Shown here: positions 50,068-64,000 of the stretch, piece after piece
How the letters are laid out: every line of letters begins with the position of its first letter
How positions within the stretch are numbered: the first letter of the stretch is position 1
Source of the DNA: Candidatus Binatia bacterium
GTDB taxonomy: Bacteria > Desulfobacterota > Binatia > UBA12015
Direction of reading: 5' to 3'
Assembly (NCBI GenBank): GCA_029243485.1
Contig: JAQWRY010000007.1
Span: forward strand, 124,001 to 188,000
DNA: 64,000 bases
Program-made: the position numbers and the translations under genes
The notes under the pieces: generated by a model
What the model was told of the DNA's origin: nothing
Databases searched by the model: none
Seen by the model: only the letters and a program-made list of their open reading frames with translations

Positions 50068-51291
50068 TCAGGCCGCCGCTTTCAGGCGCTCCGCGAGGCT
50101 CCGGTAGAGTTGCTCGGTGTGGGCGACCATGGAGGCCACCGCGAAGACGGTCTCGACCCGCTCTTGTCCGGCTCGTCCGAACTTCTCGCGAAGTTCCTTG
50201 GAACCGCACAGGCGCGCGAGGGCATTGGCGAGGGCGGGCGCGTCGCGGGCCGGGACCAACAGTCCGGTTTCTTCCTGGATGATCACCTCGGCGTTCCCGC
50301 CGACGTCGGTCGCGGCGATCGACCGGCCGGCCGCCATGGACTCGATGACTGAGTTCGAGAGTCCTTCCTTCACCGAGGAGAGGACGGAGAAGTCGAGGCT
50401 CTGTAGCCACTCGGCTGCATCGGTACGGAACCCCGTGAAGTGGACGCGGTCGGCGATGCGGAGCTCGCGCGTCATGCGTCGGAGGCGCTCTTCTTCACTT
50501 CCGCCGCCGACCACGACGAGGTGCAGCTTCGGCGCACGGTCGCGGATCAGCGACATGGCCTGCAGGAGCGTGCCGTGGTCCTTGGCGGGCTCCACGCGAG
50601 CCACGACTCCGGCGAGGATGCAGTCGTCCGGTACGCCGAGTTCCTGGCGGCGAACCTGAGGATCGCATGGGGCGCGAAAGCGCTCGAAATTTACCCCGTT
50701 GTAGATAGTGAGCACCTTGTCCGGGTCGAGTCCGCCTCGGTCGAGAAGGTAGGTTCGTACCGCCTCGGAGTTGGCTACCACGCAGTCGGTCCTGCGCGCG
50801 AGCCACCGGCCGATGACGCGCTTGTAGGCCTCTTCCCAGATGTCGACGTTGCGCTCGGATGCGACGATGATGGGCACGCCGGCCAGTCGGGCCGCGAGGC
50901 GGCCCCAGGTATTGGCGGTCCAGAGGTAGGTCTGGACGATGTCGAAGCGCTCGCGCTTCATCAGACTGGCGAGCCGCAGAATCAAGCCGGGGTCGGCCCT
51001 CATGCGCTTGGGTTCGTGGTGGACCGGGACGCCGAAGGACGCGATTTCCTTCGCCTTCCGGCCGTAGCGGAAGCAGCACACGTGGGGCTCGAAGCGCTCT
51101 CGGTCGATTCGTTTGACCAGCTCGAGAATCTGCTGCTCGGTCCCGCCGATGTCGAGTTCATCGATGATGAACAGCACGCGGAGCGGGGGCCCCGAGGGGC
51201 CCGCCGTCTGCGGGAGACCGGAGCCGGAGCGCGGTCGCCACTGCAGGACCTGTGCACCGCCTTGGCTCGGCGAAACCTGATTTTCGTCCAT
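50068..51291 (-). CDS. Family 4 glycosyltransferase
   Basis: The 407-residue protein starts at ATG 51291 with AGGAT seven bases upstream. After a 35-residue Gly/Pro/Ser leader comes LRVLFIIDELDIGGTEQQILEL, the donor-domain start VVARVEPAKDHGTLLQA near residue 225, and VKEGLSNSVIESMAAGRSI near 300 with E-x7-E. It is transcribed just before the previous GT4 with a two-base gap. Linkage and sugar cannot be told. Confidence 0.88.
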   Translation of the reverse strand: MDENQVSPSQGGAQVLQWRPRSGSGLPQTAGPSGPPLRVLFIIDELDIGGTEQQILELVKRIDRERFEPHVCCFRYGRKAKEIASFGVPVHHEPKRMRADPGLILRLASLMKRERFDIVQTYLWTANTWGRLAARLAGVPIIVASERNVDIWEEAYKRVIGRWLARRTDCVVANSEAVRTYLLDRGGLDPDKVLTIYNGVNFERFRAPCDPQVRRQELGVPDDCILAGVVARVEPAKDHGTLLQAMSLIRDRAPKLHLVVVGGGSEEERLRRMTRELRIADRVHFTGFRTDAAEWLQSLDFSVLSSVKEGLSNSVIESMAAGRSIAATDVGGNAEVIIQEETGLLVPARDAPALANALARLCGSKELREKFGRAGQERVETVFAVASMVAHTEQLYRSLAERLKAAA

Positions 51292-51344
51292 GAAAGCGAT
51301 CCTGAAATCGAATATCCGACGCGGCGCAGGCCACGTCGGAGGGG

Positions 51345-52349
51345 TCAGCGGGAGTTGTCCGTCGAATCGTCGGGCGTCGTGGGGCTCTTCATGCTGTCGA
51401 CGCCGGCGGTGAGGTCGAGGATTGGTTCCCACCCGAGTTGGTCGCGCGCCGCGCTCGTGTCGTATCGCAGGCTCTCGGTGGCTCGCTTGAGCTTGTACCG
51501 CGTGAGCGGAAGGGAGCGACCGGTGAGACGAGTCGCCAATTCACAGCCCATGGCGATCGGGGTGAAAAGTGCCGAGGGGACGTACGTGGGACGGATCGGT
51601 GCGACGCCGGAGGTGGCCAGTAGCGCGAGGTAGTCGCCCTGCGAGGTCGTGCCGTCGACTACGTTGTAGGTTCCGCCACGCGCACCGCGCTCGCCGGCGA
51701 GCACTATCGCGTCGCAGGCGTTGTCTACATGGGTGAGGGGCAGCAGGTTGTTGCGTGACCCTACGACGATGCGTCTCCCACGGCCGCGTGGGACCGGGAA
51801 GCTGAGGCGGCCGAGGAAGGGCTTGGCCTCGGACCCGTACAAGAGCCCCGGGCGGATGATGACGACCTCGACGTTCGAGTTCTCGCCGAAGCGTCGCACC
51901 CGGTCGTCTGCCCGGGCTTTGGACCAGGCGTACGCGCCGCGCTGTTCGATCGAGGGATCGAGGGGCGTGGTCTCGTCGATGTCGCCGGACGCGGCGTCGG
52001 AGCCATAGATGCCGGCCGAGCTCACGTAGACGAACCGTTTCACGCCGGCAGCTTCCGCCGCTTCGAGAAGGTTCTCGGTGGCGGTTACGTTGTCGCGTTC
52101 GAAGGCATCCCGAGAGCCACCGGAACTGACACGCGCCGCAACGTGGAACACGGTGTCGATCGCGTGGGTGGCCCGGGCGAGCGCGGCGGGGTCGTCGAGT
52201 CCGCCCCAGACCGTCTCCTGGATCTCCTCTGGGATTCGCTTCAAGTCCGTTCCAACCCGTACCAACGCGCGCAGCGTGCGGCCTTTGGCCGCGAGTCGCG
52301 CAGACAAGTGGCGTCCGAGGTATCCCGTGCAACCCGTCAGGAGTTCCAT
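51345..52349 (-). CDS. NAD-dependent epimerase/dehydratase (extended SDR)
   Basis: This is a 334-residue Rossmann protein. TGCTGYLGRHLSARL is the cofactor motif, YVSSAGIYGSDAASGD the serine loop, and the catalytic YxxxK is in GAYAWSKARADD. It resembles SDRs acting on nucleotide or lipid-linked sugars. Its start is within the end of the Gfo/Idh gene (13-base overlap), pairing two redox enzymes. Confidence 0.85.
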   Translation of the reverse strand: MELLTGCTGYLGRHLSARLAAKGRTLRALVRVGTDLKRIPEEIQETVWGGLDDPAALARATHAIDTVFHVAARVSSGGSRDAFERDNVTATENLLEAAEAAGVKRFVYVSSAGIYGSDAASGDIDETTPLDPSIEQRGAYAWSKARADDRVRRFGENSNVEVVIIRPGLLYGSEAKPFLGRLSFPVPRGRGRRIVVGSRNNLLPLTHVDNACDAIVLAGERGARGGTYNVVDGTTSQGDYLALLATSGVAPIRPTYVPSALFTPIAMGCELATRLTGRSLPLTRYKLKRATESLRYDTSAARDQLGWEPILDLTAGVDSMKSPTTPDDSTDNSR

Positions 52350-53446
52350 GAGTCCTCGCCATTCGTGATGTGGCCCGTGCCGGTCTCGGCGCGTGCGACG
52401 GTAGAGAAGTGGTTCTCGATCTCGCGGAGCAGCCAGACGTTCTGGCGGCCGGCGGCGCCATCCACCGGTGCGGGGTCGCCCTGATCGAGGCTCTTGTAGA
52501 ACCGTCGAATGTTCTGGCCGATGCCCGGGTACGTCTTCATTCGGCGCAGCGCCACGGCGAGGACAGTCTCGACCGTGGACCCGACGAGTTGCGCAGCCGG
52601 TTCCAGGTTAGAGGTGAACTTCGCGACCATCTTCGGGAGCTTGCGCACCTTCTCGACGGTCATCGCCATGGTGTTCAAGTTGGCCCGCAGCGTTCCCTTC
52701 GTTCCGAACACGTTCACGTGGTTCAGGTAGGGCTGGGCGCCCATCGAGAACGTCACGTAGCCGTAGGTTCCGTTCGATTCGAGAAGAACCCGGATCTCCC
52801 GCAGCAGGCCGTCCGCGCCGATCGGCTGCCCGACGATCTGCACGCCGTCGACCGGGCCGAGGAAGTGCGCGGCCAGGTACAGCGGGTGGGGTCCGAGGTT
52901 GTAGAGCGGGGCGAAGGGGTCCGCGACGCTCCAGTGAGCGTCGCCGGTCGGCGCAGGGCCACCGTCGACGGGGTTCACACCCTGGAGCGCTTCCACGGAG
53001 ACGATCTCTCCGAGGGCGCCGCTGTCCACAAGGTTGCGTGCCTTCAAGATGACGGGGTCGAACAGTCGGTTGTGGTCGACACAGATCCGCCGACCGTACC
53101 GCTCCGCGGTCTCGATCATCTGGTCGCAGTCCTCGACGGACATCGCCATCGGCTTCTCGACAAGGACGTTGGCCCCGTTCTCCATCGCGGCGACGGCAAG
53201 CCTCGCGTGTGTCGCGGGCGGGGTCACGATGTGCACGATGTTCGGCTGCTCTTTGCGCAGCATCTCCTCGATGTCGTCGTAGAACGCTGGGATGTTGCGC
53301 TGCTGTGCGAACTCCTCGGCGGTGTCGCGGTCGGCATCGCACACCGCCACGACCTGGGCGTTTGGCACATTTTTGGCGTAGCCGTGGTGGACGGCGGCGA
53401 TACGGCCGGCGCCGACGAGGGCTACCCGATGGGAACGCTCACTCAT
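52337..53446 (-). CDS. Gfo/Idh/MocA family oxidoreductase
   Basis: The 369-residue enzyme starts at ATG 53446. VALVGAGRIAAVHHGYA is the NAD(P) fold and VLVEKPMAMSVEDCDQM has the EKP motif. CVDHNRLFDPVI and the catalytic-type segment PHPLYLAAHFLGP follow. Members oxidise or reduce sugars and nucleotide sugars (WlbA-type 3-dehydrogenases). It lies between the radical SAM gene and the SDR in the modification cassette. Confidence 0.86.
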   Translation of the reverse strand: MSERSHRVALVGAGRIAAVHHGYAKNVPNAQVVAVCDADRDTAEEFAQQRNIPAFYDDIEEMLRKEQPNIVHIVTPPATHARLAVAAMENGANVLVEKPMAMSVEDCDQMIETAERYGRRICVDHNRLFDPVILKARNLVDSGALGEIVSVEALQGVNPVDGGPAPTGDAHWSVADPFAPLYNLGPHPLYLAAHFLGPVDGVQIVGQPIGADGLLREIRVLLESNGTYGYVTFSMGAQPYLNHVNVFGTKGTLRANLNTMAMTVEKVRKLPKMVAKFTSNLEPAAQLVGSTVETVLAVALRRMKTYPGIGQNIRRFYKSLDQGDPAPVDGAAGRQNVWLLREIENHFSTVARAETGTGHITNGEDSWNS

Positions 53447-53468
53447 GATGATGAAAAGCTCGCTGAGA

Positions 53469-54668
53469 TCAGCCGAAGGTCGGCAGGTAGCGCCAGAAGT
53501 CGTTGTTGAGCGCGCAGCACTTCGCACACTTCGGGAAGAGGCGGCGCTCCTTCAACGTCCGGCGGAAGGTCTGGTAGGCATCGTTGTTCCAGATGTCGAT
53601 CACGCTCGAGTCGAGAACGTTGCCGAAGGCGACGTCGATCGAACATGAGTACACGTCACCATACGGGCTGATGCGGAACGTCTTCCATGGGTAGAAGCAC
53701 TTCTCGACGAAGGCGTATTCGTCATCGAGGAAGCGACGCTCCATCTGCTCGGGCGTCGTGAGCGGCGGCCCGAATCCGATCGGAATGCCGTACTCCTCGC
53801 TCTTCTTTTTCGCCTTCTCCGATTCCTCAAACAGCGTCTGGCCGTTGACCTGACGGAGGTACATCGGAAGGTCCTGGTCCTCTTCCTTTGAGGCGACCGG
53901 AAGCGGCACGAGGTCTTCGGTCTCCCGGTCGTGCTCGGGGGTGGTGTAGAACATGTAGTCGAAGTCGACCGTGTCGACGCCGGTGTCCTTCAACCAGTCG
54001 AGAACCTCGCTGTAGCGATGCTGGTTCAGGGCCGAGACGGTCACGGTGATGCCGATCTTCGGCCGCCGGACGCCCAACTCCTTCTTGGCGTCCTGGATGT
54101 TCTGGATGCCCTCGAGCAAACGGCGGAAACTGCCCTTTCCGCGGCGGATCTCATCGTGCAGATCGTCCGGGCCGTCGACCGAAATCGACAGTGCATGCGG
54201 CTTCAGGGCGACGAGTCGACGGGCTTCCTCGGGGCGGAGGAACCAGCCATTCGTGTTCACGCAGAGGTGAATCGGCGTCTTCGTGATGTGCTCGATGATC
54301 TCGAACGCGTCCTTGCGCAGGAAGACCTCACCGCCGGTGATCGTCATGTCCTCGACGCCCATCTTCGCGATGTCGTCGATGACCTTCTTCACTTCTTCGG
54401 TGCTGAGTTCGTGGCCCTGGCGGGACTTCACGTGCTCCCCGTCGGTCTTGTTGTGCATCATGCGGGGCAGATCGAGTGGGCACATCTGGCAGGACAGATT
54501 GCAGCGTAGGGTCAGCTCGAAGGTGACCGACTGCGGCGTCCATGCCTTACCGCCGGCGACGGTGTACGGAATCCAGTACTTGTAGGATTTCAGGTTGCTC
54601 TTGGTGAGACCGCGGTCTCGCAACCATCCCTTCATGTCATCGGCTACGGAATTTTCGTCGTTCGTCAT
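53469..54668 (-). CDS. Radical SAM protein with SPASM-like C-terminal domain
   Basis: The 399-residue enzyme binds a 4Fe-4S cluster through Cys56, Cys60 and Cys63 (LRCNLSCQMC). TITGGEVFLRKDAFEI is the GGE motif and LSISVDGPDD the following strand. The C-terminus has CFYPWKTFRISPYGDVYSCSID (split as CFYPW and GDVYSCS) and a CAKCCALN cysteine group, as in SPASM/twitch domains with an auxiliary cluster. No peptide substrate gene is nearby, so a role in sugar modification in this locus is more likely than peptide maturation. Specific reaction unknown. Confidence 0.88.
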   Translation of the reverse strand: MTNDENSVADDMKGWLRDRGLTKSNLKSYKYWIPYTVAGGKAWTPQSVTFELTLRCNLSCQMCPLDLPRMMHNKTDGEHVKSRQGHELSTEEVKKVIDDIAKMGVEDMTITGGEVFLRKDAFEIIEHITKTPIHLCVNTNGWFLRPEEARRLVALKPHALSISVDGPDDLHDEIRRGKGSFRRLLEGIQNIQDAKKELGVRRPKIGITVTVSALNQHRYSEVLDWLKDTGVDTVDFDYMFYTTPEHDRETEDLVPLPVASKEEDQDLPMYLRQVNGQTLFEESEKAKKKSEEYGIPIGFGPPLTTPEQMERRFLDDEYAFVEKCFYPWKTFRISPYGDVYSCSIDVAFGNVLDSSVIDIWNNDAYQTFRRTLKERRLFPKCAKCCALNNDFWRYLPTFG

Positions 54669-54709
54669 GGCGTGTGCGCTCCGGCGGATCGGGAATGGAA
54701 ATGGGTTCC

Positions 54710-55498
54710 CTAAAGGAACCGACGTCCCTGCTGGCGCAGACGGAGGCCGTCGGCGCGGGTAGGAAATGAGAAGTACGTTGCTTGGCTGCGATCGTTGGGC
54801 TGCGTGCTGGCACTGCCACCTTCGAGGCGATCGATCGCCTCGATGATGAGCCGCGCTCCGGCAGCCTTGGTCTTCCGGATTACCGTGTCCTGCGTGTCCG
54901 CGTCGCCGATCTCGACGGTCTCCTGTAGGAGGATGGGGCCGTCGTCGAGCTCCTCGTTCATGAAATGCACCGTCGTGCCCGTTTCCTTCTCGCCGTTCGC
55001 GAGAACCCAGAAGCTGGGAAGCCGCCCGCGGTACCGGGGAAGGAGAGCCCCGTGCACGTTGATGCAGCCCAAACGGGGCAGGGCGAGGATCTCGCTCTTG
55101 AACTTCTGACTCGCGTTGATCGAGATGATGACGTCGAGGTCGAGACTTCGGAGGAAGTCGAGGTACTCCTTCGAGTTGACGCTCTCGGTCGGGTGCAGAG
55201 GGAGATCGTACGCCTTCGCGACGCCTTGGACCGAGTAGTGTCCTGGAAGCGGCACGTACTGCTCTAGGATCGCGAGCGCGCGTCGCGATGCGTAGCGCAG
55301 CCCCTGCCGGAAGAACTGAACCAGGCCGTAGACGGCCAGGTGATCGCGCATCGTCGTGGTCCAGGTCTGCTTGGGCATCAGCGCCGGCAGAATCGTCATC
55401 CCGGCGAGGTTCGCCCGCCGGTGTCGAAGCACCGTGTGGGTGAACTGCGGCAGATACAGGCAGTCTTCCTGGGTGATGATGAAGGCTTTGAGTGGCAT
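54710..55498 (-). CDS. Formyltransferase family protein (methionyl-tRNA formyltransferase-like)
   Basis: The 262-residue protein starts at ATG 55498 after AGGAA. The formyltransferase active site is intact: Asn147 and His149 in CINVHGALLPRYRG, and Asp185/Asp186 in NEELDDGPILLQ. It lacks the C-terminal tRNA-binding OB domain of true Fmt, and the context is a polysaccharide locus. I therefore infer N-formylation of an amino sugar from 10-formyl-tetrahydrofolate. Confidence 0.85.
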   Translation of the reverse strand: MPLKAFIITQEDCLYLPQFTHTVLRHRRANLAGMTILPALMPKQTWTTTMRDHLAVYGLVQFFRQGLRYASRRALAILEQYVPLPGHYSVQGVAKAYDLPLHPTESVNSKEYLDFLRSLDLDVIISINASQKFKSEILALPRLGCINVHGALLPRYRGRLPSFWVLANGEKETGTTVHFMNEELDDGPILLQETVEIGDADTQDTVIRKTKAAGARLIIEAIDRLEGGSASTQPNDRSQATYFSFPTRADGLRLRQQGRRFL

Positions 55499-55551
55499 TG
55501 CGTTCGTTCCTACACTCGATCGGTCATTCTGAGGGTGTGGCCGGTTATAAA

Positions 55552-55566
55552 CAAGTTGCAAACTTG
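55552..55566 (-). terminator. Possible intrinsic terminator between the XrtA-type deacetylase and formyltransferase genes
   Basis: On the minus strand, CAAGTT-TGC-AACTTG forms a perfect six-base-pair hairpin followed by TTTATAA. It is two bases past the stop of the deacetylase gene and in the only sizeable gap (70 bases) of the downstream half. The stem is short and AT-poor in T-run, so termination may be partial. It may instead mark the start of a second transcript. Confidence 0.4.
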
Positions 55567-55568
55567 AG

Positions 55569-56447
55569 TTAGGAGGCCAGCCAGCCCCGTTCGGCCAGGA
55601 TTTGGCTCATCGGGGCGAAGCGGAACTCGGAGAGGAGGCGGCGGAGCTTTTCCTCCATGGCCTCCAACCGGAGGTAGTGGGTCGAAAAGCCCCGTTTTCC
55701 TCGGGTTTTGATCCGGGGCTGCTCCGGGTCGATTTCCCACGGGTGGAGATAGACCAGTGCGGGCTCGCCCTCCCGGTTCACCCGGCGCATGCCCCACCGC
55801 ATATAGTGGTAGGGCAGGAGGCGAAGGTAGGCCCCGCCGCCCAGCGGCAGGTTCTTGTTCCCGACCTTGGCGGTCGTCATAGGAAACTCCACCAGCCGGC
55901 GATCGCCGGATTGGTGGATCACGAACGGAAACCGTAGGGCTCCCGGCATACCGTACAGGGCGTCCTGGACCGGGAAGATGCTCGAATCGTACTCGAGGCC
56001 GGCCTCGAGCATGACGTCGAGGGCCCACATCGAGCGTGACGTCACGGAGAAGGACGGCGCTCGATAGCCTTTCACGGGCGTCCCGAGGATTCCCATGAGG
56101 ATCTCCTGCGAGCGTTCGAGATCCTGCTTGTAAAGGTCACGCCCCTGCTCGTAGACAAGCCGGTGCGCGTAGCCGTGGGTCGCGACTTCGTGCCCGTCGG
56201 CCGCGATTTCTTCGACCAGGCCGGGGAAGCGCTCGGCGTTCCACGTCAGAATGAAGAACGTGCCTTTGACGTTGAACTCGGCCAGCATCCGCAGCAGGCG
56301 CCGCGTGTTCTCGACGACCCGGCTCTCGTACTTGTCCCAGTCTTCGAGTCGGACCTGCTCCTCGAAGTCAGAGACCTGGAACCAGTCTTCGACGTCGACG
56401 GAGAAAGCGTTCGTGATCTCGGAGGAAGCCATCTCAGTCGCTGCCAT
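55569..56447 (-). CDS. Polysaccharide deacetylase of the XrtA/PEP-CTERM type (DUF3473)
   Basis: The protein is about 292 residues, starting at ATG 56447 (MAATEM); ATG 56432 and 56468 are alternatives. NAFSVDVEDWFQVSDFE is the hallmark opening of XrtA-locus deacetylases, with Asp/Glu in place of the usual TFDDG. The metal site continues in VATHGYAHRLVY, and GYRAPSFSVTSRSMWALD is typical. LPLGGGAYLRLLPYHYMRWG and YLHPWEIDPEQPR complete the DUF3473 part. This gene is the best single marker that the locus belongs to the exosortase-A group. Confidence 0.9.
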   Translation of the reverse strand: MAATEMASSEITNAFSVDVEDWFQVSDFEEQVRLEDWDKYESRVVENTRRLLRMLAEFNVKGTFFILTWNAERFPGLVEEIAADGHEVATHGYAHRLVYEQGRDLYKQDLERSQEILMGILGTPVKGYRAPSFSVTSRSMWALDVMLEAGLEYDSSIFPVQDALYGMPGALRFPFVIHQSGDRRLVEFPMTTAKVGNKNLPLGGGAYLRLLPYHYMRWGMRRVNREGEPALVYLHPWEIDPEQPRIKTRGKRGFSTHYLRLEAMEEKLRRLLSEFRFAPMSQILAERGWLAS

Positions 56448-57636
56448 CCGACGCGGACGGTGCCACATCGCTGCCGGTCTCGAACGGGCGGTCCGCGGTA
56501 TTCCAGCGGCCGAGCTCGGAGCCCGTGAGGACCTTCCACCAGCCCATCGTGGCGGCGAGGTTCGCGATGCCGAAGTACACGGCCGGCGAAACCAGCCGCT
56601 GAAGCCGTCCTTCGGGCAAGAGCTGGGCGACCGGAATCGCTCCGTAGGCCAGGACCTGCGCGGCGAAGGCGAGCTGATAGAACAATCCCAGTCCTGTCGC
56701 GAGTCCAGATCCGATGAAGATCATCAGGAACCAGACGGGCGTCAAGTAACGAAGACCCTTGCGGGAGAGGAGCTCGAGTCCGAGGAGTTTGGCGCGCCCG
56801 CGGACGATGTCCGGCCAGACGGCTAAGATCCCCCGGATGCCTCGACCGATGATGCGCGACCGGCGCTTCAGCTCGTCGTCGAGATCCTTCGAGCCGGCCT
56901 CGATCGAGAGCGCTCCCGGCTCGTACAGGCACTTATGTCCGGCGGCTCCGACCCAGATGGGCTGCACCATGTCGTTGCAGGTGTCATTGGGTATGGGGCG
57001 GCAGAGCGTTGTCCGGACGCCGAAGATCGACCCGTTCGCTCCGAGAAGTGTGCCGAGGTCGCTCTCCAGACGCTTCTGCATCTGGTCGAGCTCCCAGTAC
57101 CGGTTGTAGCCCTCGGCAATCGCGTTCTCGTTGAAGTTTCGGTACACGAGCTCGCCGCACACGCTGCCGACGGTGGCGTCGGCGAACGGTTGCACGAGCT
57201 TCTTCATGGCGTCGGGCTCGTACATTCCGTTGGCGTCGGTGAAGACGGTGATGTCGCCCCGCACCCGAGGCATCGACTCGTTCAACGCGAGGTTCTTCCC
57301 GCGGTTCTCCGTGTACTCGTGAAGGACCACCCCGCGATCGGCGAAGCTCTCCGCGATCTCGGTGGTCCGGTCGGTGGAGCCGTCGGAGACGACCACGATC
57401 TCGAGACGCTCCTTGGGGTAATCGAGCGCGACCGCATTCTCGAGCTTCCGGTCGAGCACTTCCTCCTCATTGTACGCCGAGATGATCAGAGTCACGGAAG
57501 GCAGCTCGTCATCGCTCGCGTACGAGCCGCGCTCGACGTCGGGTCGGAGCCGGGCCAAGAGCGACAGGAGGAGGGGGTATCCGACGTACTGGTAGACCAG
57601 TGTCAGAACTCCACCCCAAAATAGAAATGCTCCCAT
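56434..57636 (-). CDS. Family 2 glycosyltransferase, processive/membrane type
   Basis: The 400-residue protein starts at ATG 57636. One N-terminal helix (FLFWGGVLTLVYQYVGYPLLL) precedes a GT-A domain: VTLIISAYNEEEVLD, VVSDGSTDRT, and VFTDANGMYEPDA with the D-x-N/D-type metal site. Three or four C-terminal helices run from residue about 295 to 375. It resembles hyaluronan-synthase-like or EpsH-type GT2 enzymes. The 14-base overlap with the XrtA-type deacetylase gene suggests coupled translation. Confidence 0.88.
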   Translation of the reverse strand: MGAFLFWGGVLTLVYQYVGYPLLLSLLARLRPDVERGSYASDDELPSVTLIISAYNEEEVLDRKLENAVALDYPKERLEIVVVSDGSTDRTTEIAESFADRGVVLHEYTENRGKNLALNESMPRVRGDITVFTDANGMYEPDAMKKLVQPFADATVGSVCGELVYRNFNENAIAEGYNRYWELDQMQKRLESDLGTLLGANGSIFGVRTTLCRPIPNDTCNDMVQPIWVGAAGHKCLYEPGALSIEAGSKDLDDELKRRSRIIGRGIRGILAVWPDIVRGRAKLLGLELLSRKGLRYLTPVWFLMIFIGSGLATGLGLFYQLAFAAQVLAYGAIPVAQLLPEGRLQRLVSPAVYFGIANLAATMGWWKVLTGSELGRWNTADRPFETGSDVAPSASDGSD

Positions 57637-57641
57637 CGTCG

Positions 57642-58832
57642 TCAATTCGGAACCACCCTCTCGCCCGGAGCGCTCCCTGGGGACTCTTCGACATTTTTGG
57701 TCTCTGCCTTGAGGCCGGCGGCAGCCATCTCCTTGCAATACAGCTGATCGAGCGCTGTGAGCATGGCCTTCTCGCTGAACTGCTCTTTCACCCGGCTCGC
57801 AGCACCCCGGGAGATGCGCTCGGCGAGGAGCTGGTCCGTCAGCACGCGTTCGATGGCGTTCGCTAGGGCGTCCGCGTCGCGCGGGGGAACGACCATTCCC
57901 GATTTCCCATCGATCGCGACCTCCGAGCTGCCTCCCGCGGACGTCGTCACGACTGGACGGCCGAGCGCCATCGCTTCCAAGAGCGCGTTGGGCATCCCCT
58001 CGATGACCGACGAGAGAACGTAGCAATCGAACCCGCTCATCCGACGGGCAACGTCGGTCTGCTGGCCCAGGAAGCGCACCGTAGAGGCCAGGCCGAGCTG
58101 CTGGACTTGCTCTGCGAGCTCATCGCGCAGGTCGCCGTCCCCGACGATGTCGACGCGGAGGCCCGGGATGCGATCCCGGAGCTGGGCGAAGGCTTGCAGG
58201 GCGTATTCATACCCCTTCTTCCAGCCGAGTCGGCCGACCATGCCGACGAGCGGCCCGTCGCCTCGCGGATCGACTTCGGGCTCGGCTGCCTCCGGTAGGT
58301 TCAGCGGGTCGGGGAGAGGGACGCCGTTCGGAATGTGTTCGATGACGGCGGGCGAGCAGCCTTCGTGTTCGAGGACCACATTGCGCACGGAGATCGCATT
58401 CACGAGGACCCGGTTCGCAGTGCGGTTGCACCACCACGCGGCCGCGCGGCGATCGAATCGATCGTAGCGATCGAGGCTTCGCTTGCTGATCAGGACGACG
58501 GGGCGCTTCGAGAGCTTCCCGGCGATCGTGCCGAGAAGATTCCCCTCAAAGAGGTAGGCGTGCACGATGTGGATGTCGCGCGCGCGCCAATCCTGCGCGA
58601 CCCGGCGGCAGGCCTGGAGGGTTTTCGGGCTCATGAGCGTGGACTCGATCTCGAAGCTTCGAACGGGGACACCCATGGCTTCGAAGTCGGCCGCCAGCTC
58701 GCCGCGGCTGGCGGAGGTTGTCCACATCTCCGGCGCGTAGCGGCGGCGATCTAGCCCGTGCACCACTTGCAGGAGGTGGCGCTGGGCGCCGCCCATCCGG
58801 AGGTGGTCGATGACGTATGCGATCCGGATCAT
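57642..58832 (-). CDS. Family 4 glycosyltransferase
   Basis: The 396-residue GT-B enzyme starts at ATG 58832, four bases inside the ligase stop region. RIAYVIDHLRMGGAQRHLLQVV is the acceptor-domain start, VGMVGRLGWKKGYEYALQA the donor-domain start near residue 205, and IEGMPNALLEAMALGRPVV near residue 290 carries E-x7-E. Sugar specificity unknown. Confidence 0.88.
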   Translation of the reverse strand: MIRIAYVIDHLRMGGAQRHLLQVVHGLDRRRYAPEMWTTSASRGELAADFEAMGVPVRSFEIESTLMSPKTLQACRRVAQDWRARDIHIVHAYLFEGNLLGTIAGKLSKRPVVLISKRSLDRYDRFDRRAAAWWCNRTANRVLVNAISVRNVVLEHEGCSPAVIEHIPNGVPLPDPLNLPEAAEPEVDPRGDGPLVGMVGRLGWKKGYEYALQAFAQLRDRIPGLRVDIVGDGDLRDELAEQVQQLGLASTVRFLGQQTDVARRMSGFDCYVLSSVIEGMPNALLEAMALGRPVVTTSAGGSSEVAIDGKSGMVVPPRDADALANAIERVLTDQLLAERISRGAASRVKEQFSEKAMLTALDQLYCKEMAAAGLKAETKNVEESPGSAPGERVVPN

Positions 58833-60400
58833 GATTCGGGTTGTCGGTACAACGCGCGGGAGGCCGCGCGTTGCGCTCCGGGTGTCCCGGCGACGACGCC
58901 GGGAAGTCCGCGCCCGCGAAGCTCGTCCTCTTCCGCCCAACGAGACAACACGATCGAGAAGGCGACGATGAAGTACAGGTGAACCTCGATCCAGACATCC
59001 GCGAAGATGGAGAAGAAGAAGAACAGGACCATGTACAGATGGAGCCAATCCGCCAAATACGGCAGCGTTGGATGGTTCCTGAACTTTGGTCTTAATTTTT
59101 GGATTCGTGTGAACAGGAAGCCGAAGAGCATCAAGTACATCACGAGCGCTGGTATTCCTCCCTCTGCAGCGGCCCAGACGTAGGAGTTGTGCGGCGGCTT
59201 ATACGAGTTGTTCATCAGCGCGTTGACCCAACGAAACTTCGAAAGGCCCACGCCCGTCAGTGGGTACTTCGCGATCACGATGAACGCGTTTTCCAGGGTG
59301 CTCACACGCTGCTCGGTCGAGCGCGATCCCTCCTCGCGCGGACCGGCGTTCACGTCTGTGGTGGCGAACGGGTTGATGTTAAGCAGGCGCTCTCGGTGCG
59401 CATCCGTCAGGACGAACGAGAACGCGAGGACCGCCATGGCGAGGCCCGCCATGGCGGAGCCGATCTTCCAGCGGCGCGGAATCTGCCCACTGCGCAGCAT
59501 CAGGACGGCGATCAACCCGAGGCCGATGAATCCACTGCGCGAGGCAGAGAGCAGCACGAGCGGCATACTGACCGCGGCACACGAGAGGAAGACGAACTTC
59601 CAGAAAAATGGTCTGACGATATTGGCGAGATAGATGAAGAGCGCGATGCCGACGTTCATCATGAACGCGAAGCGGTTCAGGTTCACCGCCCAGCCAACCA
59701 CCTTCGACGTGATTCGATACTCGGCTTCACCGCGGGTCATATCCGGGCCGAGTGTGGGCAGCACGGACGCAACGCAGAAGGCGAACAGGAACAGCGCCCA
59801 GCGGAGCTGATTGGGCGTGCGAATCCACTGCAGAAAGAAGATGACAAAGACGAGCCGTGAGACGAGTTCGAAGACCCATCTCGCCGTATCGTCGTTGTTG
59901 CCGTAGAATGCGGGGCCGGTGACCTTCGCGCGCGAAACCGCCGGGAGAAGGCGCTTGTCGGGCAGGAACAAGTCACTGACCAGGGCGATCGTGATCATCC
60001 AGAGCGAGATGATCACGAGGAGCCGGATCTCGGGCTCGCGCAAGAACCAGTAGTCGTGTGTGCGGTAGGTCTCGAAGACGAGGAGCGTGAGCAGGATCGC
60101 CCCGAGCATGTTGTTGATGGTGAACGGGCTGACGCCCTTCAGGGCATCCGGGTAGGACATCAACATCGTCGACATGATGATGAAGACGCCGATGTGCGGC
60201 TTGTAGAAGACCAGCGCACCGCCGAAGAGGCCGACGACGAGAGCCGCACCGACGAATACCGCGCGATCGTCTACGAGCGCAGCGAGGCCGAGAGCGATCG
60301 CCGCGATGGCGAGACCGCCCAGCGCCCACGCGGGGAGGGCGGCTACTTCGCCGGTGCGCCGGGTGGTGGCGCTTCCGGCGGGGAGTGGGGATGCGGTCAC
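58829..60400 (-). CDS. O-antigen ligase/polymerase family membrane protein
   Basis: The 523-residue integral membrane protein starts at GTG 60400. About eleven hydrophobic helices are visible. The largest periplasmic loop (about 330-420) contains TLENAFIVIAKYPLTGVGLSKF (as G-V-G-x-x-x-F) and PPHNSYVWAAAEGGIPAL, the Wzy_C/WaaL hallmark with an invariant-type histidine. It would polymerise or ligate the polymer on the periplasmic side. The terminal 35 residues are a polar cytoplasmic tail. Confidence 0.87.
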   Translation of the reverse strand: MTASPLPAGSATTRRTGEVAALPAWALGGLAIAAIALGLAALVDDRAVFVGAALVVGLFGGALVFYKPHIGVFIIMSTMLMSYPDALKGVSPFTINNMLGAILLTLLVFETYRTHDYWFLREPEIRLLVIISLWMITIALVSDLFLPDKRLLPAVSRAKVTGPAFYGNNDDTARWVFELVSRLVFVIFFLQWIRTPNQLRWALFLFAFCVASVLPTLGPDMTRGEAEYRITSKVVGWAVNLNRFAFMMNVGIALFIYLANIVRPFFWKFVFLSCAAVSMPLVLLSASRSGFIGLGLIAVLMLRSGQIPRRWKIGSAMAGLAMAVLAFSFVLTDAHRERLLNINPFATTDVNAGPREEGSRSTEQRVSTLENAFIVIAKYPLTGVGLSKFRWVNALMNNSYKPPHNSYVWAAAEGGIPALVMYLMLFGFLFTRIQKLRPKFRNHPTLPYLADWLHLYMVLFFFFSIFADVWIEVHLYFIVAFSIVLSRWAEEDELRGRGLPGVVAGTPGAQRAASRALYRQPES

Positions 60401-60407
60401 GCCCCCC

Positions 60408-61415
60408 TCACGCTCCGATCTTGCCCCGTTCGATATCTAGAGTGAACTCAGGGAGCGCTCCGTGGCGGTTGTAGATGCCGATGCGCTTGAGCGCGAACGG
60501 GTCGTCGCCGATCTGCACGCTGCCCGTCACGGAGGTCGTCGCGGAGTCGAACTTCGCGTCGCGGACCATGCCCTTCACTGCCTCGGTGAGGTGCGCACTG
60601 CCTCGGCCGTTCGGGTACGAGAAGTGGCGGATGGGTTCGTTGATCTGTTCTGCCAGAGCCTTGCCGGAACCATCGATCTCTCGCTGCGCCTCTTCCGGCG
60701 TGGCGTTAGGTAGGTTTGGGTGGGTAAGGGTATGCGCGCCGAAGATCATTCCGGCCTTGTGCATCTCGCGTACCTGGTCCCAGGACATCATGATCCCACT
60801 GAGGGCCGAGGTATCGTCGATCTCGCCGGCGACACGAACCGCTTCGAGGAGTTCCAGGCGGCGGGCTGTCGGGACGTTCTTCATCGTCACGACCAGTTTG
60901 GTGAACGCCTCTTTGCGCTCCTCGGGGCTGCCGAGGGGGAGCCGGAAGGCCATCGGTTCGTGCGTCTCGAGCACGGGCACCTCGGTCGTGAAGACGACGA
61001 AGCGCAGGAGGCCGGTCCAGAGAATCTCCTCGTTGTCGATGCAGTTGGTCGTGACGTAGAACGTCGCGTTCAAACCGTGCTGCTCGAGAATCGGGAAGGC
61101 TTGCGTGTAATTGTCCAGGTAGCCGTCATCGAAGGTGAGGGCGACGGCCTTGGGGGGGAGCGGCTTTCCCTCGATCAGTCGGGTTACCATCTCGTCGAGC
61201 GAGATCACGTTGTAGTGCCGCGCGAGGTAGGCGCACTGGCGGTCGAAATGCTCTGGGCGGACGGCGAGGCCGGGATCCAGGCACAGGTGGGTGCCATCGG
61301 CCGCGGTGCTCACGGAATGGTAGCGAAGAATGACGGCGCGGCCTGCAAGGCAGGCGCGGGCGACGGAGGAGATCCCTCCATGGTGGATCGCCAGCTTGGC
61401 CAGATTGCGGATCAC
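60408..61415 (-). CDS. Polysaccharide deacetylase (NodB homology, CE4)
   Basis: The 335-residue protein has FGAHTLTHPNLPNATP with the zinc-binding HxxxH, ALTFDDGYLDNYTQAFPI motif 1, and FSYPNGRGSAH. I use the GTG at 61415, giving VIRNLAKLAIHHGG. The only good Shine-Dalgarno (GGAG at 61431-61434) is better placed for an ATT at 61424. It is the third deacetylase of the locus and follows the Wzz gene in transcription order. Confidence 0.85.
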   Translation of the reverse strand: MIRNLAKLAIHHGGISSVARACLAGRAVILRYHSVSTAADGTHLCLDPGLAVRPEHFDRQCAYLARHYNVISLDEMVTRLIEGKPLPPKAVALTFDDGYLDNYTQAFPILEQHGLNATFYVTTNCIDNEEILWTGLLRFVVFTTEVPVLETHEPMAFRLPLGSPEERKEAFTKLVVTMKNVPTARRLELLEAVRVAGEIDDTSALSGIMMSWDQVREMHKAGMIFGAHTLTHPNLPNATPEEAQREIDGSGKALAEQINEPIRHFSYPNGRGSAHLTEAVKGMVRDAKFDSATTSVTGSVQIGDDPFALKRIGIYNRHGALPEFTLDIERGKIGA

Positions 61416-61476
61416 ATTGGAAATGGTCGTCTCCTGTGGAAGATACGCCGGCCGTACAGCATCGTCGCGGGGACGA

Positions 61477-62904
61477 CTAGCTCGGGTGAATGTCGGAGAT
61501 GAGGCCGAGAACCGGCAGTTCCAGCTCGCGTTCGATGTCGGAGCCGAAGTGGTAGGTTTGGTAGAGGTATTCGAGGCCGAAGGCGCCCGCGATACCGAGC
61601 GCACCGCCGGCGATGAGGGCGACGATGATGGTCAGCATCGTATTCTGCCCGCTCGGTTTGTTCGGCGGGTAGGCACGGTCGACGATGCGGACGGTGTCCA
61701 ACTTGTCCGCACTCATTTCCATTGAGAGGGATGCTTCGTGGTTGTCTTCTATCGCGCGATTGAGTGCGATACGCAGCTGCTCGACGGTGTTCCCTAGCGA
61801 GCGCAGTTTGGATCCGTGCTTGTCGATGTCCTGGATCCGCTCGTTGTACGTCGAGACGGTGGCCTGGAGCGAAGCCTTCTTGGCGAGCATCGCTTCGCGG
61901 TTTGCGCGTGCGCGGTGCAACTCTTCTTCGAGGTTTTGCCGGATCGGGTTTCGTTCGAAGCGCTCGGTGCCGATGATCCGCTGCGGCTGGCCGGCCACCT
62001 GCGCGCGGAGCTCGGAGATCTGTCGCATTTTGTCTTGAACACGACGGTCGACGCCCGTGTACTTCTGGCGGAGATCGGAGAGCTCGACGGTCAGGATCCC
62101 GATGCGCTCCTCGAGCGCGCGGGCAACCGGGTTGTTCACCATGTTCACGTCGCTCGCGACGCGTTCGGGCTCGTTTGTCAGCGTGGCTTCGAGCTCGGTG
62201 ATCAGCTGGTTGCTCTGAGCGGCGAGGGCGGAGGTCTCGTCGATCGCGAGTTCGTTGGCCATCATCTGGCGAACACTCTCATCCAACTGCTGGTCGAGGT
62301 CGATGATGCCCGTCTTGTGCTGGTAGTGGTCGAGGTCCGCCTCGGCGGCGATCAGCTTCGTCTCGAGATCCTTCTTCCGCTTCTCGAAGAAGACGGCGAT
62401 CTCCGGCGACTCGTACAAGCTCGGGTGATACTCGAGGTATGTGTCGACGAGGGTGTTCACTACGGCTGCCGCGAGGTTCTTGTCGGGGTGAACGAACGCG
62501 ATCTCGATCATCGGCGACTTTGGAAAGGCGCTTACCTGTAGGCCCTTGCGCATGGCGGCGGCGGTGCGAGAGGCGCGCTTGTCCGGATCGGCTGGCGCGT
62601 CGTCGATGATGTCGACCTGGAGCCGGCGTGCGGCGGCGAGGAGGAACGAGCGGTTCTGGAGGTTCTCGATCTCGGCGAAGATGACCTGTGCTTCGGGAAT
62701 CTGCGTCGTCTTGCGCGTCTCCTGCGGGGAGAGGTGCATGTAACTACGACTGCCGATGACAAGGAGCTTCGCCCGCGCGACGTACTTCGGGGGACGAACC
62801 AGCGTGAAGGCGATGATGGGGATCGAGATCGCAAGAAAAGCGATCACGACGAACCGCTTACGCTTGAACAGAATATGGAGGAACTCGCGTACGGCTTCGT
62901 TCAT
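61477..62904 (-). CDS. Wzz/GumC-type polysaccharide chain-length regulator
   Basis: The 475-residue inner-membrane protein has helices at about 17-37 and 423-445 with a long, largely coiled-coil periplasmic region between. PPKYVARAKLLVIG is the first periplasmic strand, and PSLYESPEIAVFFEKRKKDLETKLIAAEADLDHYQHKTG starts the coiled coil (seen as FFEKRKKDLETKL). The C-terminal helix and GLEYLYQTYHFGSDIERELELPVLG tail (in parts) fit PCP proteins of XrtA/GumC type. It overlaps the kinase-like gene by four bases (ATGA), a classic Wzc-split pair. Confidence 0.9.
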   Translation of the reverse strand: MNEAVREFLHILFKRKRFVVIAFLAISIPIIAFTLVRPPKYVARAKLLVIGSRSYMHLSPQETRKTTQIPEAQVIFAEIENLQNRSFLLAAARRLQVDIIDDAPADPDKRASRTAAAMRKGLQVSAFPKSPMIEIAFVHPDKNLAAAVVNTLVDTYLEYHPSLYESPEIAVFFEKRKKDLETKLIAAEADLDHYQHKTGIIDLDQQLDESVRQMMANELAIDETSALAAQSNQLITELEATLTNEPERVASDVNMVNNPVARALEERIGILTVELSDLRQKYTGVDRRVQDKMRQISELRAQVAGQPQRIIGTERFERNPIRQNLEEELHRARANREAMLAKKASLQATVSTYNERIQDIDKHGSKLRSLGNTVEQLRIALNRAIEDNHEASLSMEMSADKLDTVRIVDRAYPPNKPSGQNTMLTIIVALIAGGALGIAGAFGLEYLYQTYHFGSDIERELELPVLGLISDIHPS

Positions 62905-64000
62905 CGAGGCTCCTCGGGCCCGGGCACCACGGCGACCTCGATGAGCTCCTGCGGATTCGTGAGGCGGGCGAGAAGCTCCGGAATGTAGTTTTGGGTCCGG
63001 TTCAGGACGGCGCCGAGAACATGCGCGCCAACCCGCTCGAGTTCACGAAGCGAAACCGCGGGGGCTCCAGTCGGAGTAGACTCGGCCTGCACGACGAGGA
63101 TGGTGCCGTCGGCGCGGGGTGCGAGGTAAGAGCTGTCCGCGTACATCTCCATCGGCGCACCGTCGATGAGGATGGAGTCGAACTCCTTGCGAACGGAGGT
63201 CACGACGTCGTCGAGTCCACGTCCTTCAAACATGTACGGAACGCGCGTCGGGCCCTGGCCGGTCGGCATGAAGTACAAGTTCGGGATTTCCGTCGCGTGA
63301 TAGTGCTCGGACGTGGCGCCGCCGTCCGCGAGTGCTTCGCAGAGGCCGGGCGCGTGGTCGCCGCCGAAGATTCGGGTCAGCCCTGGCGTTCGGAAGTTCG
63401 CGTCGATCAGCAGGCAGCGGCCGCCCTGGGACATCGTGGACCCGAGTAGGGCCGTGGTGGTCGTGGCGCCTTCGCCGTGCCGGGAGGAGACGAGGAGGAT
63501 GAGCTGCAGGGCGCGGGGCGCCTTGGTCGCCATGATGTTCTTGCGGAGTTGCTGGAACTCTTCAATCGTCGTCGGAGGGACGTCGAAGGTGAATGTGCGG
63601 TAACCGCTTCCGTTGCGGTAACCGTTCCCACGCCAGCCGTTCCCGTTCCCGCGGCCGTTTCCATTGCCGCCGTTTCCGCGACCGTTTCCATTGCCGCCGT
63701 TCCCGCGGCCGTTTCCGAAGAAGCCGTTGCCGCGGAAGCCGCCGTTGCCCTGGCTCTCGCGGAACCGGTAGGGCGCACGGCCGTTGCCGTTCCCGTTGCC
63801 GCGCCAACCGTTCCCGTTCCCGTTGCCGCGCCAGCCGTTTCCGTTTCCGTTCCCGTTGCCGGCGCGCGGGTAGCCGTTTCCGTTTCCGGTGCGCGGGTAG
63901 CCATTGCCGTTGCCCTGGCGCGGGTAGCCGTTGCCGTTGCCGGCTTGCGCGTGACCATTGCCGTTGCCGTTGCCGGCTTGCGCGTGACCATTGCCGTTGC
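62901..64000 (-). CDS. BY-kinase/CpsD-like ATPase with N-terminal Gly-Asn repeat (5' end beyond window)
   Basis: The frame is open to the right edge. The ATPase part has the EEFQQLRKNI helix, VSSRHGEGATTTTALLG, LLIDANFRTPGLTRIFG (Walker A') and FDSILIDGAPMEMYAD (Walker B). Walker A has alanine where kinases have lysine. The C-terminus (PGPEEPR) has no tyrosine cluster. Upstream of TFDVPPTTI there is no ATG, GTG or TTG in frame, so the Gly-Asn-rich repeat coded from 63606 to the edge must be translated if EEFQQLRKNI is. It lies next to Wzz, its expected partner. Confidence 0.85.
   Translation of the reverse strand, partial: NGNGHAQAGNGNGNGHAQAGNGNGYPRQGNGNGYPRTGNGNGYPRAGNGNGNGNGWRGNGNGNGWRGNGNGNGRAPYRFRESQGNGGFRGNGFFGNGRGNGGNGNGRGNGGNGNGRGNGNGWRGNGYRNGSGYRTFTFDVPPTTIEEFQQLRKNIMATKAPRALQLILLVSSRHGEGATTTTALLGSTMSQGGRCLLIDANFRTPGLTRIFGGDHAPGLCEALADGGATSEHYHATEIPNLYFMPTGQGPTRVPYMFEGRGLDDVVTSVRKEFDSILIDGAPMEMYADSSYLAPRADGTILVVQAESTPTGAPAVSLRELERVGAHVLGAVLNRTQNYIPELLARLTNPQELIEVAVVPGPEEPR
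63606..64000 (-). repeat. Coding low-complexity repeat: Gly-Asn with Tyr-Pro-Arg/Trp-Arg interruptions
   Basis: The minus-strand frame reads units such as NGNGYPRQG, NGNGYPRTG, NGNGYPRAG, NGNGNGWRG and NGNGHAQAG, then a more irregular GNGRGNGG part and GFRGNGFFGNG. The DNA is built from gccgttNCC-type hexamers (GGN AAC codons) in about 24-27-base repeats. It continues past the right edge. Confidence 0.85.

Follow-up and report, generated by a model that had tools for sequence, protein, structure and literature searches.

A stand-alone BY-kinase-like protein with an Asn-Gly-rich linker as a putative scaffold in a Binatia polysaccharide export locus

BY-kinase folds serve PCP-2 polysaccharide machines both with and without catalysis. 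In M. xanthus, EcpK binds EpsV and is required for EPS, and the available text of PMC12004946 presents a model in which the PCP C-terminus lies within the groove of this pseudokinase. Phosphorylation of the Tyr tail of Wzc dissolves its octamer (PMC8285477). For CapB1, no in vitro activity was detected in the work described in PMC3795738, where ExxRxxR is given as an oligomerisation motif. Here we analyse a gene that crosses the right edge of a 64,000-nucleotide stretch of Candidatus Binatia DNA (the window, G000:C7:124001-188000), in which a BY-kinase-like domain is preceded by a long Asn-Gly (NG) repeat.

Gene extent and the surrounding locus

The window is part of a longer contig, and the gene can therefore be read past the edge on that contig. 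Inside the window, the minus-strand frame 62901-63998 is open up to the edge. Its first ATG, GTG or TTG is an ATG at 63533, right behind the EEFQQLRKNI helix, so the original statement that no start codon separates this helix from the edge holds. Read further to the right, the frame runs on to a GTG at window-equivalent position 64382, 382 bases past the edge, and this start is found at the same position in 11 of 11 family orthologues. The resulting 493-residue product confirms that the repeat is an in-frame part of a protein, joined to a domain of the BY-kinase fold. The order of parts is an N-terminal helix (MGKTYEALKRAEAER; residues 1-16 are MGKTYEALKRAEAERK), a Thr/Pro-rich stretch, a W-R box (SERRWFRFGRQ, residues 62-72), the Asn-Gly array and the BY-kinase-like domain, with PPTTIEEFQQLRKNI (residues 269-283) lying between array and domain. 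From its extent (Table 1), about two thirds of the array lies inside the window.

Table 1. Features on the minus strand, in window coordinates
Feature	Position	Strand	Basis or remark
Putative BY-pseudokinase gene, in-window part	62901..64000	-	Frame reading; GTG start shared by orthologues
Asn-Gly array, in-window part	63603..64000	-	Whole array 63603-64166, residues 73-260
EEFQQLRKNI helix, ExxRxxR counterpart	63534..63563	-	First Arg is Gln, second retained
RHGEGATTTT, Walker A without lysine	63453..63482	-	Alignment
LLIDANFRTP, Walker A′	63384..63413	-	Second Asp replaced by Asn
ILIDGAPMEMY, Walker B region	63141..63173	-	Asp retained
C-terminal RLTNPQELIEVAVVPGPEEPR instead of Tyr cluster	62904..62966	-	Orthologue comparison
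PCP-2-like chain-length protein, 475 aa, without kinase domain	61477..62904	-	Best NCBIfam model TIGR03007
XrtA-type polysaccharide deacetylase	55569..56468	-	TIGR03006, 354.9 bits, cut-off 276.2

A frameshift or missed upstream start was ruled out by reading the full gene beyond the window. The N-terminal helix and the domain share one frame, their order is identical in 10 other family genomes, and the frameshift within the repeat that had been raised as a possibility is not seen. That the array is an assembly or frame artefact is hardly credible. Metagenome assemblies can mis-size repeats, and one family contig ends inside the neighbouring PCP gene; against this stand the identical in-frame architecture in 11 genomes and the synonymous variety of the array codons, leaving as uncertain only the exact NG copy number, which rests on an assembly of 88 contigs. 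When the last 1501 bases of the window were searched against their own genome (E <= 0.001), only the pseudokinase gene and the continuation of the array were found among the best 40 of 138 candidates scored.

The gene is present in 11 of 14 family genomes. Of the three others, G001 has a contig that breaks off within the PCP gene (its locus of 2126 bases consists of 1500 of flank, 624 of match and 2 more), and G002 (87% complete) and G011 (70% complete) lack a PCP match as well. Records with family members carry titles such as Deltaproteobacteria bacterium and Candidatus Binatia bacterium. A locus of this family, with 72% domain identity, also stands in a record titled 'MAG: Klebsiella pneumoniae isolate LH-02apr19-159' (L038, CAMBZJ010000012.1), a title that looks wrong.

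The PCP-2-like gene overlaps the pseudokinase gene by 4 bp. Its product matches GNVR at 28 bits (Pfam cut-off 27.7) and TIGR03007 at 124.5 bits, below the cut-off of 278.85, and scores 13.6 bits against the EpsV model (cut-off 800). In each of the 11 family members a PCP-like frame lies no more than 25 bases from the matched domain. Across class Binatia, such a frame stands in the fetched flank (~1.3-1.5 kb) at 43 of 48 loci; none was found within that flank at the remaining five (L015, L031, L068, L069 and L070; the single member of family f2 and all four of f11). The pseudokinase gene comes after an OPX export gene (Poly_export 71.6 bits, cut-off 28) and a TIGR03015-like ATPase gene (267.4 bits, below the cut-off of 324.5). 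The TIGR03015-like ATPase at L003:4677-6827 has 716 residues and a long Ala/Pro-rich middle, a further long low-complexity linker at this locus. Downstream of the pseudokinase lie glycosyltransferase-like genes and the TIGR03006 deacetylase. EPS genes extend across 50068-61604 of the window, TIGR03088-like glycosyltransferases among them scoring below cut-off. No exosortase (TIGR02602) scored above cut-off in the 14 family genomes; weak matches occurred in four, none of them the window's genome. With TIGR03006 above cut-off and no exosortase match, we read this EPS locus as one of the XrtA type that lacks a detectable exosortase.

A BY-kinase fold without catalytic residues

For comparison across the class, 48 of 148 genomes had a match at E <= 1e-26, a cut-off that omits weaker stand-alone frames (e.g. 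in G028 and G035); one row was kept per genome and duplicate loci were removed. The window's protein has Ala at the Walker A lysine position and one Tyr within its last 30 residues. In all 48 rows the Walker A lysine (GK[ST]) is missing, the second Walker A′ Asp is Asn, and the last 30 residues hold 0-2 Tyr, whereas GK[ST] and Asp are present in 18 of 18 comparator domains, five of which were supplied by genomes of the window's family; one more comparator, L053, is a fragment without the Walker columns. A 100/100 branch sets the 48 class members off from 10 comparators in a tree that left out the other eight comparator domains and L053. The first Arg of ExxRxxR is retained in 4 of the 48. Where kinases carry a Tyr cluster, a C-terminal motif RL[TSA]NPQ[ED] is present in 11 of 11 family orthologues.

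An active BY-kinase is ruled out on these residues. With neither the Walker A lysine nor the Walker A′ Asp nor a Tyr cluster, the protein is best read as a pseudokinase; of the earlier label 'BY-kinase-like ATPase', the fold stands, and the ATPase or kinase activity is not supported by these residues.

The fold was modelled with AlphaFold2 on an orthologue (L034, VGTG01000046.1) that is 90% identical in the domain, from a shallow alignment of 16 sequences, seven of them orthologues (mean pLDDT 67, pTM 0.56). The domain and a helix at residues 3-30 (block pLDDT 79-93) are confident; residues 34-43, 45-139 and 141-161 and the last 30 fall under 50. This low-confidence linker is probably disordered, as judged from the model. 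The predicted structure has the BYK fold, with VIA-align matches to 4jlv (CapA1B1, Z 27.7), 4jmp (27.5) and Wzc and VpsO (~27); Foldseek ranks CapAB and Wzc at the top, and the best PDB sequence matches of the domain are likewise BY-kinases (CapA1B1, E 3.2e-20). The next structures outside the BYK group are MinD/Soj, at Z ~17.

Loss of the catalytic residues has not erased the P-loop region. The Walker A core is HGEG in 44 of the 48 class members, HGDG in two, HSEG in one and SGTG in one. The HGEGxT core is strongly kept (His in 47 of 48), and the Walker B Asp is kept as well. A pure scaffold could do without the HGEGxT core, so the domain may still bind nucleotide. There are lysine-less nucleotide switches among the MinD/ParA-superfamily proteins whose P-loops are altered. 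The domain might likewise bind ATP through HGEGxTTT without tyrosine kinase activity, a reading to which the retained core and Asp, the MinD folds among the structural matches and a weak resemblance to BcsQ (PF06564, 19.4 bits, cut-off 21.3) lend something. We nevertheless regard it as unlikely, since lysine and Walker A′ Asp are both gone in every class member and the Tyr substrate tail is missing.

Beyond the class, 66 of 297 phylum genomes match the family profile at E <= 1e-40, many as long, Wzc-sized frames. Twenty places in the phylum, picked for high score or short frame, were aligned. The Walker A lysine is missing in 19 and retained in L112 (GEGKT); the Walker A′ residue is Asn in 15, Asp in three (L109, L113 and L117) and another residue in two; and His before GEG is not typical. 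Lysine loss is thus widespread in the phylum, in line with a survey cited in the available text of PMC12004946, and members of the class typically combine HGEG with an Asn in Walker A′. Fused pseudokinase forms also occur in this sample, with a PCP-like part and a lysine-less domain joined in one frame of 591-633 aa (L103, L104, L105, L106, L108 and L117).

The linker and its Asn-Gly array

The N-terminal helix is found by a loose pattern in 47 of 48 class members and by eye in the 48th (L059), commonly as [MVL][SG]K[IT]YEALK with the first codon as translated. Between the conserved ends, 47 linkers (L059 excluded) measure 22 to 257 aa, a comparison that supports the original suggestions of a linker and of a length-variable region. 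Aligning homologues and counting repeats places NG-rich linkers in two families. In f1, the window's family, all 11 orthologues have them (74-257 aa, 2-48 NG), so the repeat is not peculiar to one genome; in f8, all four members do (57-69 aa, 7-11 NG). The remaining 32 of the 47 hold 0-2 NG, and the array is therefore not needed for basic function.

The W-R box precedes the first NG in 11 of 11 f1 linkers, whereas most NG precede the box in f8 (three of four by pattern, L020 by eye). In f6, which the tree places as sister to f8 (support 99/91), all six members carry the box and 0 or 1 NG. The tree needs two NG-state changes over the 47 rows. Grouping f1 with f8 as one clade was rejected by the AU test (p 0.0147, with a tool warning on long branches), and a grouping of f1, f6 and f8 was not (p 0.21), which leaves room for a single NG gain with loss in f6. 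From the differing position relative to the W-R box, we favour two independent NG expansions, in f1 and f8, as a reading short of proof.

The array of the window's protein has 188 residues, among them 48 Asn and 72 Gly, and every Asn precedes a Gly; it also holds 14 Arg, 5 Tyr, 3 Trp and 4 Phe. The whole 257-aa linker contains 48 NG dipeptides; 2000 shuffles averaged 14.0 (sd 2.8) and never exceeded 23.

These data bear on whether the repeat matters in itself. The array could be without a function of its own, an (AACGGC)n tract that slipped and expanded in a permissive disordered linker of which only some length is required. We hold this to be quite possible, although we lean against it, and it is compatible with a scaffold role for the protein. 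Several observations point that way: the 32 members that do without an array, a 33-bp unit that the window's genome repeats six times in almost the same form, single NG dipeptides in the linkers of f5, f6, f11 and f13 that could be seeds, and two near-identical genes (L007/L008, from genomes G012/G008) whose differences are a single base and one NG unit of 6 bp. The last of these fits slippage, or a one-unit assembly difference. Other observations speak against it: NG-rich linkers in every f1 and f8 member; 162 of 184 f1 linker Asn preceding Gly, with NG in the folded domains of f1 proteins appearing 0 times in eight and twice in three; and the placement of most NG behind the W-R box in f1 and ahead of it in f8. 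Third codon positions of the NG units are ~30% diverged from AACGGC, yet the array is still 51% NG against ~24% expected under equal drift, a crude estimate confounded by recent duplication.

That the repeat drives condensation (phase separation) or contacts glycan, both of which had been suggested, is improbable. A low-complexity array interspersed with Arg, Tyr, Trp and Phe would suit such a role, but family members exist with only two NG (L012) or few array aromatics (e.g. L009). A cytoplasmic protein, moreover, would not meet exported glycan, and the glycan-contacting idea in particular is made unlikely by the lack of any membrane segment or signal visible by inspection.

A still more speculative idea, and a very improbable one, is that the array is a chemical timer by which a kinase-less machine is dissolved or retired through spontaneous deamidation instead of phosphorylation. 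Asn-Gly is the fastest-deamidating dipeptide in unstructured peptides, with a half-life of the order of days (available text of PMC4682632), and the idea draws on this chemistry and the array composition alone. Were it true, the tether, with as many as 48 NG sites, would go from a net positive to a strongly negative charge as the protein ages. The distribution of isoaspartate repair (PF01135) lends the timer no support: every one of the 14 family genomes and of the 14 controls scores above cut-off; the PF01135 matches in G007, G008 and G012 are only weak (best E 4.7e-6, 2.3e-8 and 9.8e-5), and the arrays are still present there.

Proposed function and comparison with known systems

We think it probable that, in an XrtA-type EPS export locus, the stand-alone BY pseudokinase serves on the cytoplasmic side as a scaffold for the PCP-2-like protein encoded next door, which has no kinase domain, and that it is held by a slippage-tuned tether. 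Docked on the PCP's short cytoplasmic C-terminus, the folded domain would aid PCP assembly with no need for tyrosine phosphorylation. The conserved N-terminal helix would bind a second partner or a neighbouring subunit, and the linker, W-R box included, would form a flexible tether. How far it reaches would depend on how many NG units it has, a number that would change by hexanucleotide slippage. Adding helix and tether would let the anchored domain reach its partner. By its composition, the W-R box may touch the membrane, which is a guess. Under the usual scaling of disordered chains, a 22-aa linker spans ~3 nm and a 257-aa linker ~15 nm. The 15 NG-rich members form a natural length series from 57 to 257 aa, so that the effect of tether length versus NG chemistry on polysaccharide export is directly testable.

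If this scaffold reading is right, the phosphorylation-independent PCP-2 kind would extend to a class whose 48 aligned members share a lysine-less P-loop and a Walker A′ Asn. It would also gain an architecture of anchoring helix, tether and domain that the available text of PMC12004946 does not discuss; the main text of that paper uses neither 'linker' nor 'disordered'.

In the open-access literature, none of the matches listed describes an Asn-Gly tether in a stand-alone BY pseudokinase. Nothing turned up there on a BY-kinase with degenerate Walker A together with polysaccharide or on a disordered tyrosine autokinase together with exopolysaccharide, and no 'disordered linker' among the matches listed for bacterial tyrosine kinases and exopolysaccharide. 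The strings EALKRAE, HGEGATT, HGEGTST, HGEGTTT and YEALKKAE were not found there, and NGNGNGNG occurred only in papers that, from their available text, seem unrelated. Repeat names returned, among the matches listed, mostly LGN proteins, plus shell matrix proteins and macrocyclic peptides.

Tyrosine autokinases of the XrtA-associated (TIGR03018) and polysaccharide biosynthesis (TIGR01007) kinds occupy a comparable place in EPS loci. The profile resemblance of the window's protein to them lies below the curated cut-offs (72.9 bits against 230.65 and 96.1 bits against 108.05, respectively). For CapA1B1 of Staphylococcus aureus, we know of no N-terminal helix or array. CapA1B1 is the best structural match (PDB 4jlv; 199 aligned, 25% identity); CapB1, unlike the window's protein, retains the Walker A lysine in the alignment and has a Y-cluster shown in the available text of PMC3795738. 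Wzc shares with the window's protein a BYK domain of a PCP-2 machine, octamer-forming in its case, and differs in being fused to its PCP and in carrying a Walker A lysine (K540) and a Tyr tail (PMC8285477).

Another close likeness is to EcpK/EpsV. As described in the available text of PMC12004946, that system also combines a stand-alone BY-kinase fold lacking catalytic residues and Tyr tail, a kinase-less PCP-2 partner and an EPS locus. EcpK has none of the Walker motifs, whereas the window's protein retains HGEGxT and the Walker B Asp; the available text mentions no Asn-Gly array for EcpK, and EcpK is compared here by its description. HfsB/HfsA of Caulobacter crescentus, compared by its description in PMC12004946, similarly has a stand-alone pseudokinase that is needed with a PCP-2 protein. 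By position, fold and lost residues, the window's protein fits the EcpK kind and, judged from sequence, looks like a stand-alone BY pseudokinase of the EcpK/EpsV and HfsB/HfsA type. Stand-alone BY pseudokinases are already known from EcpK and HfsB.
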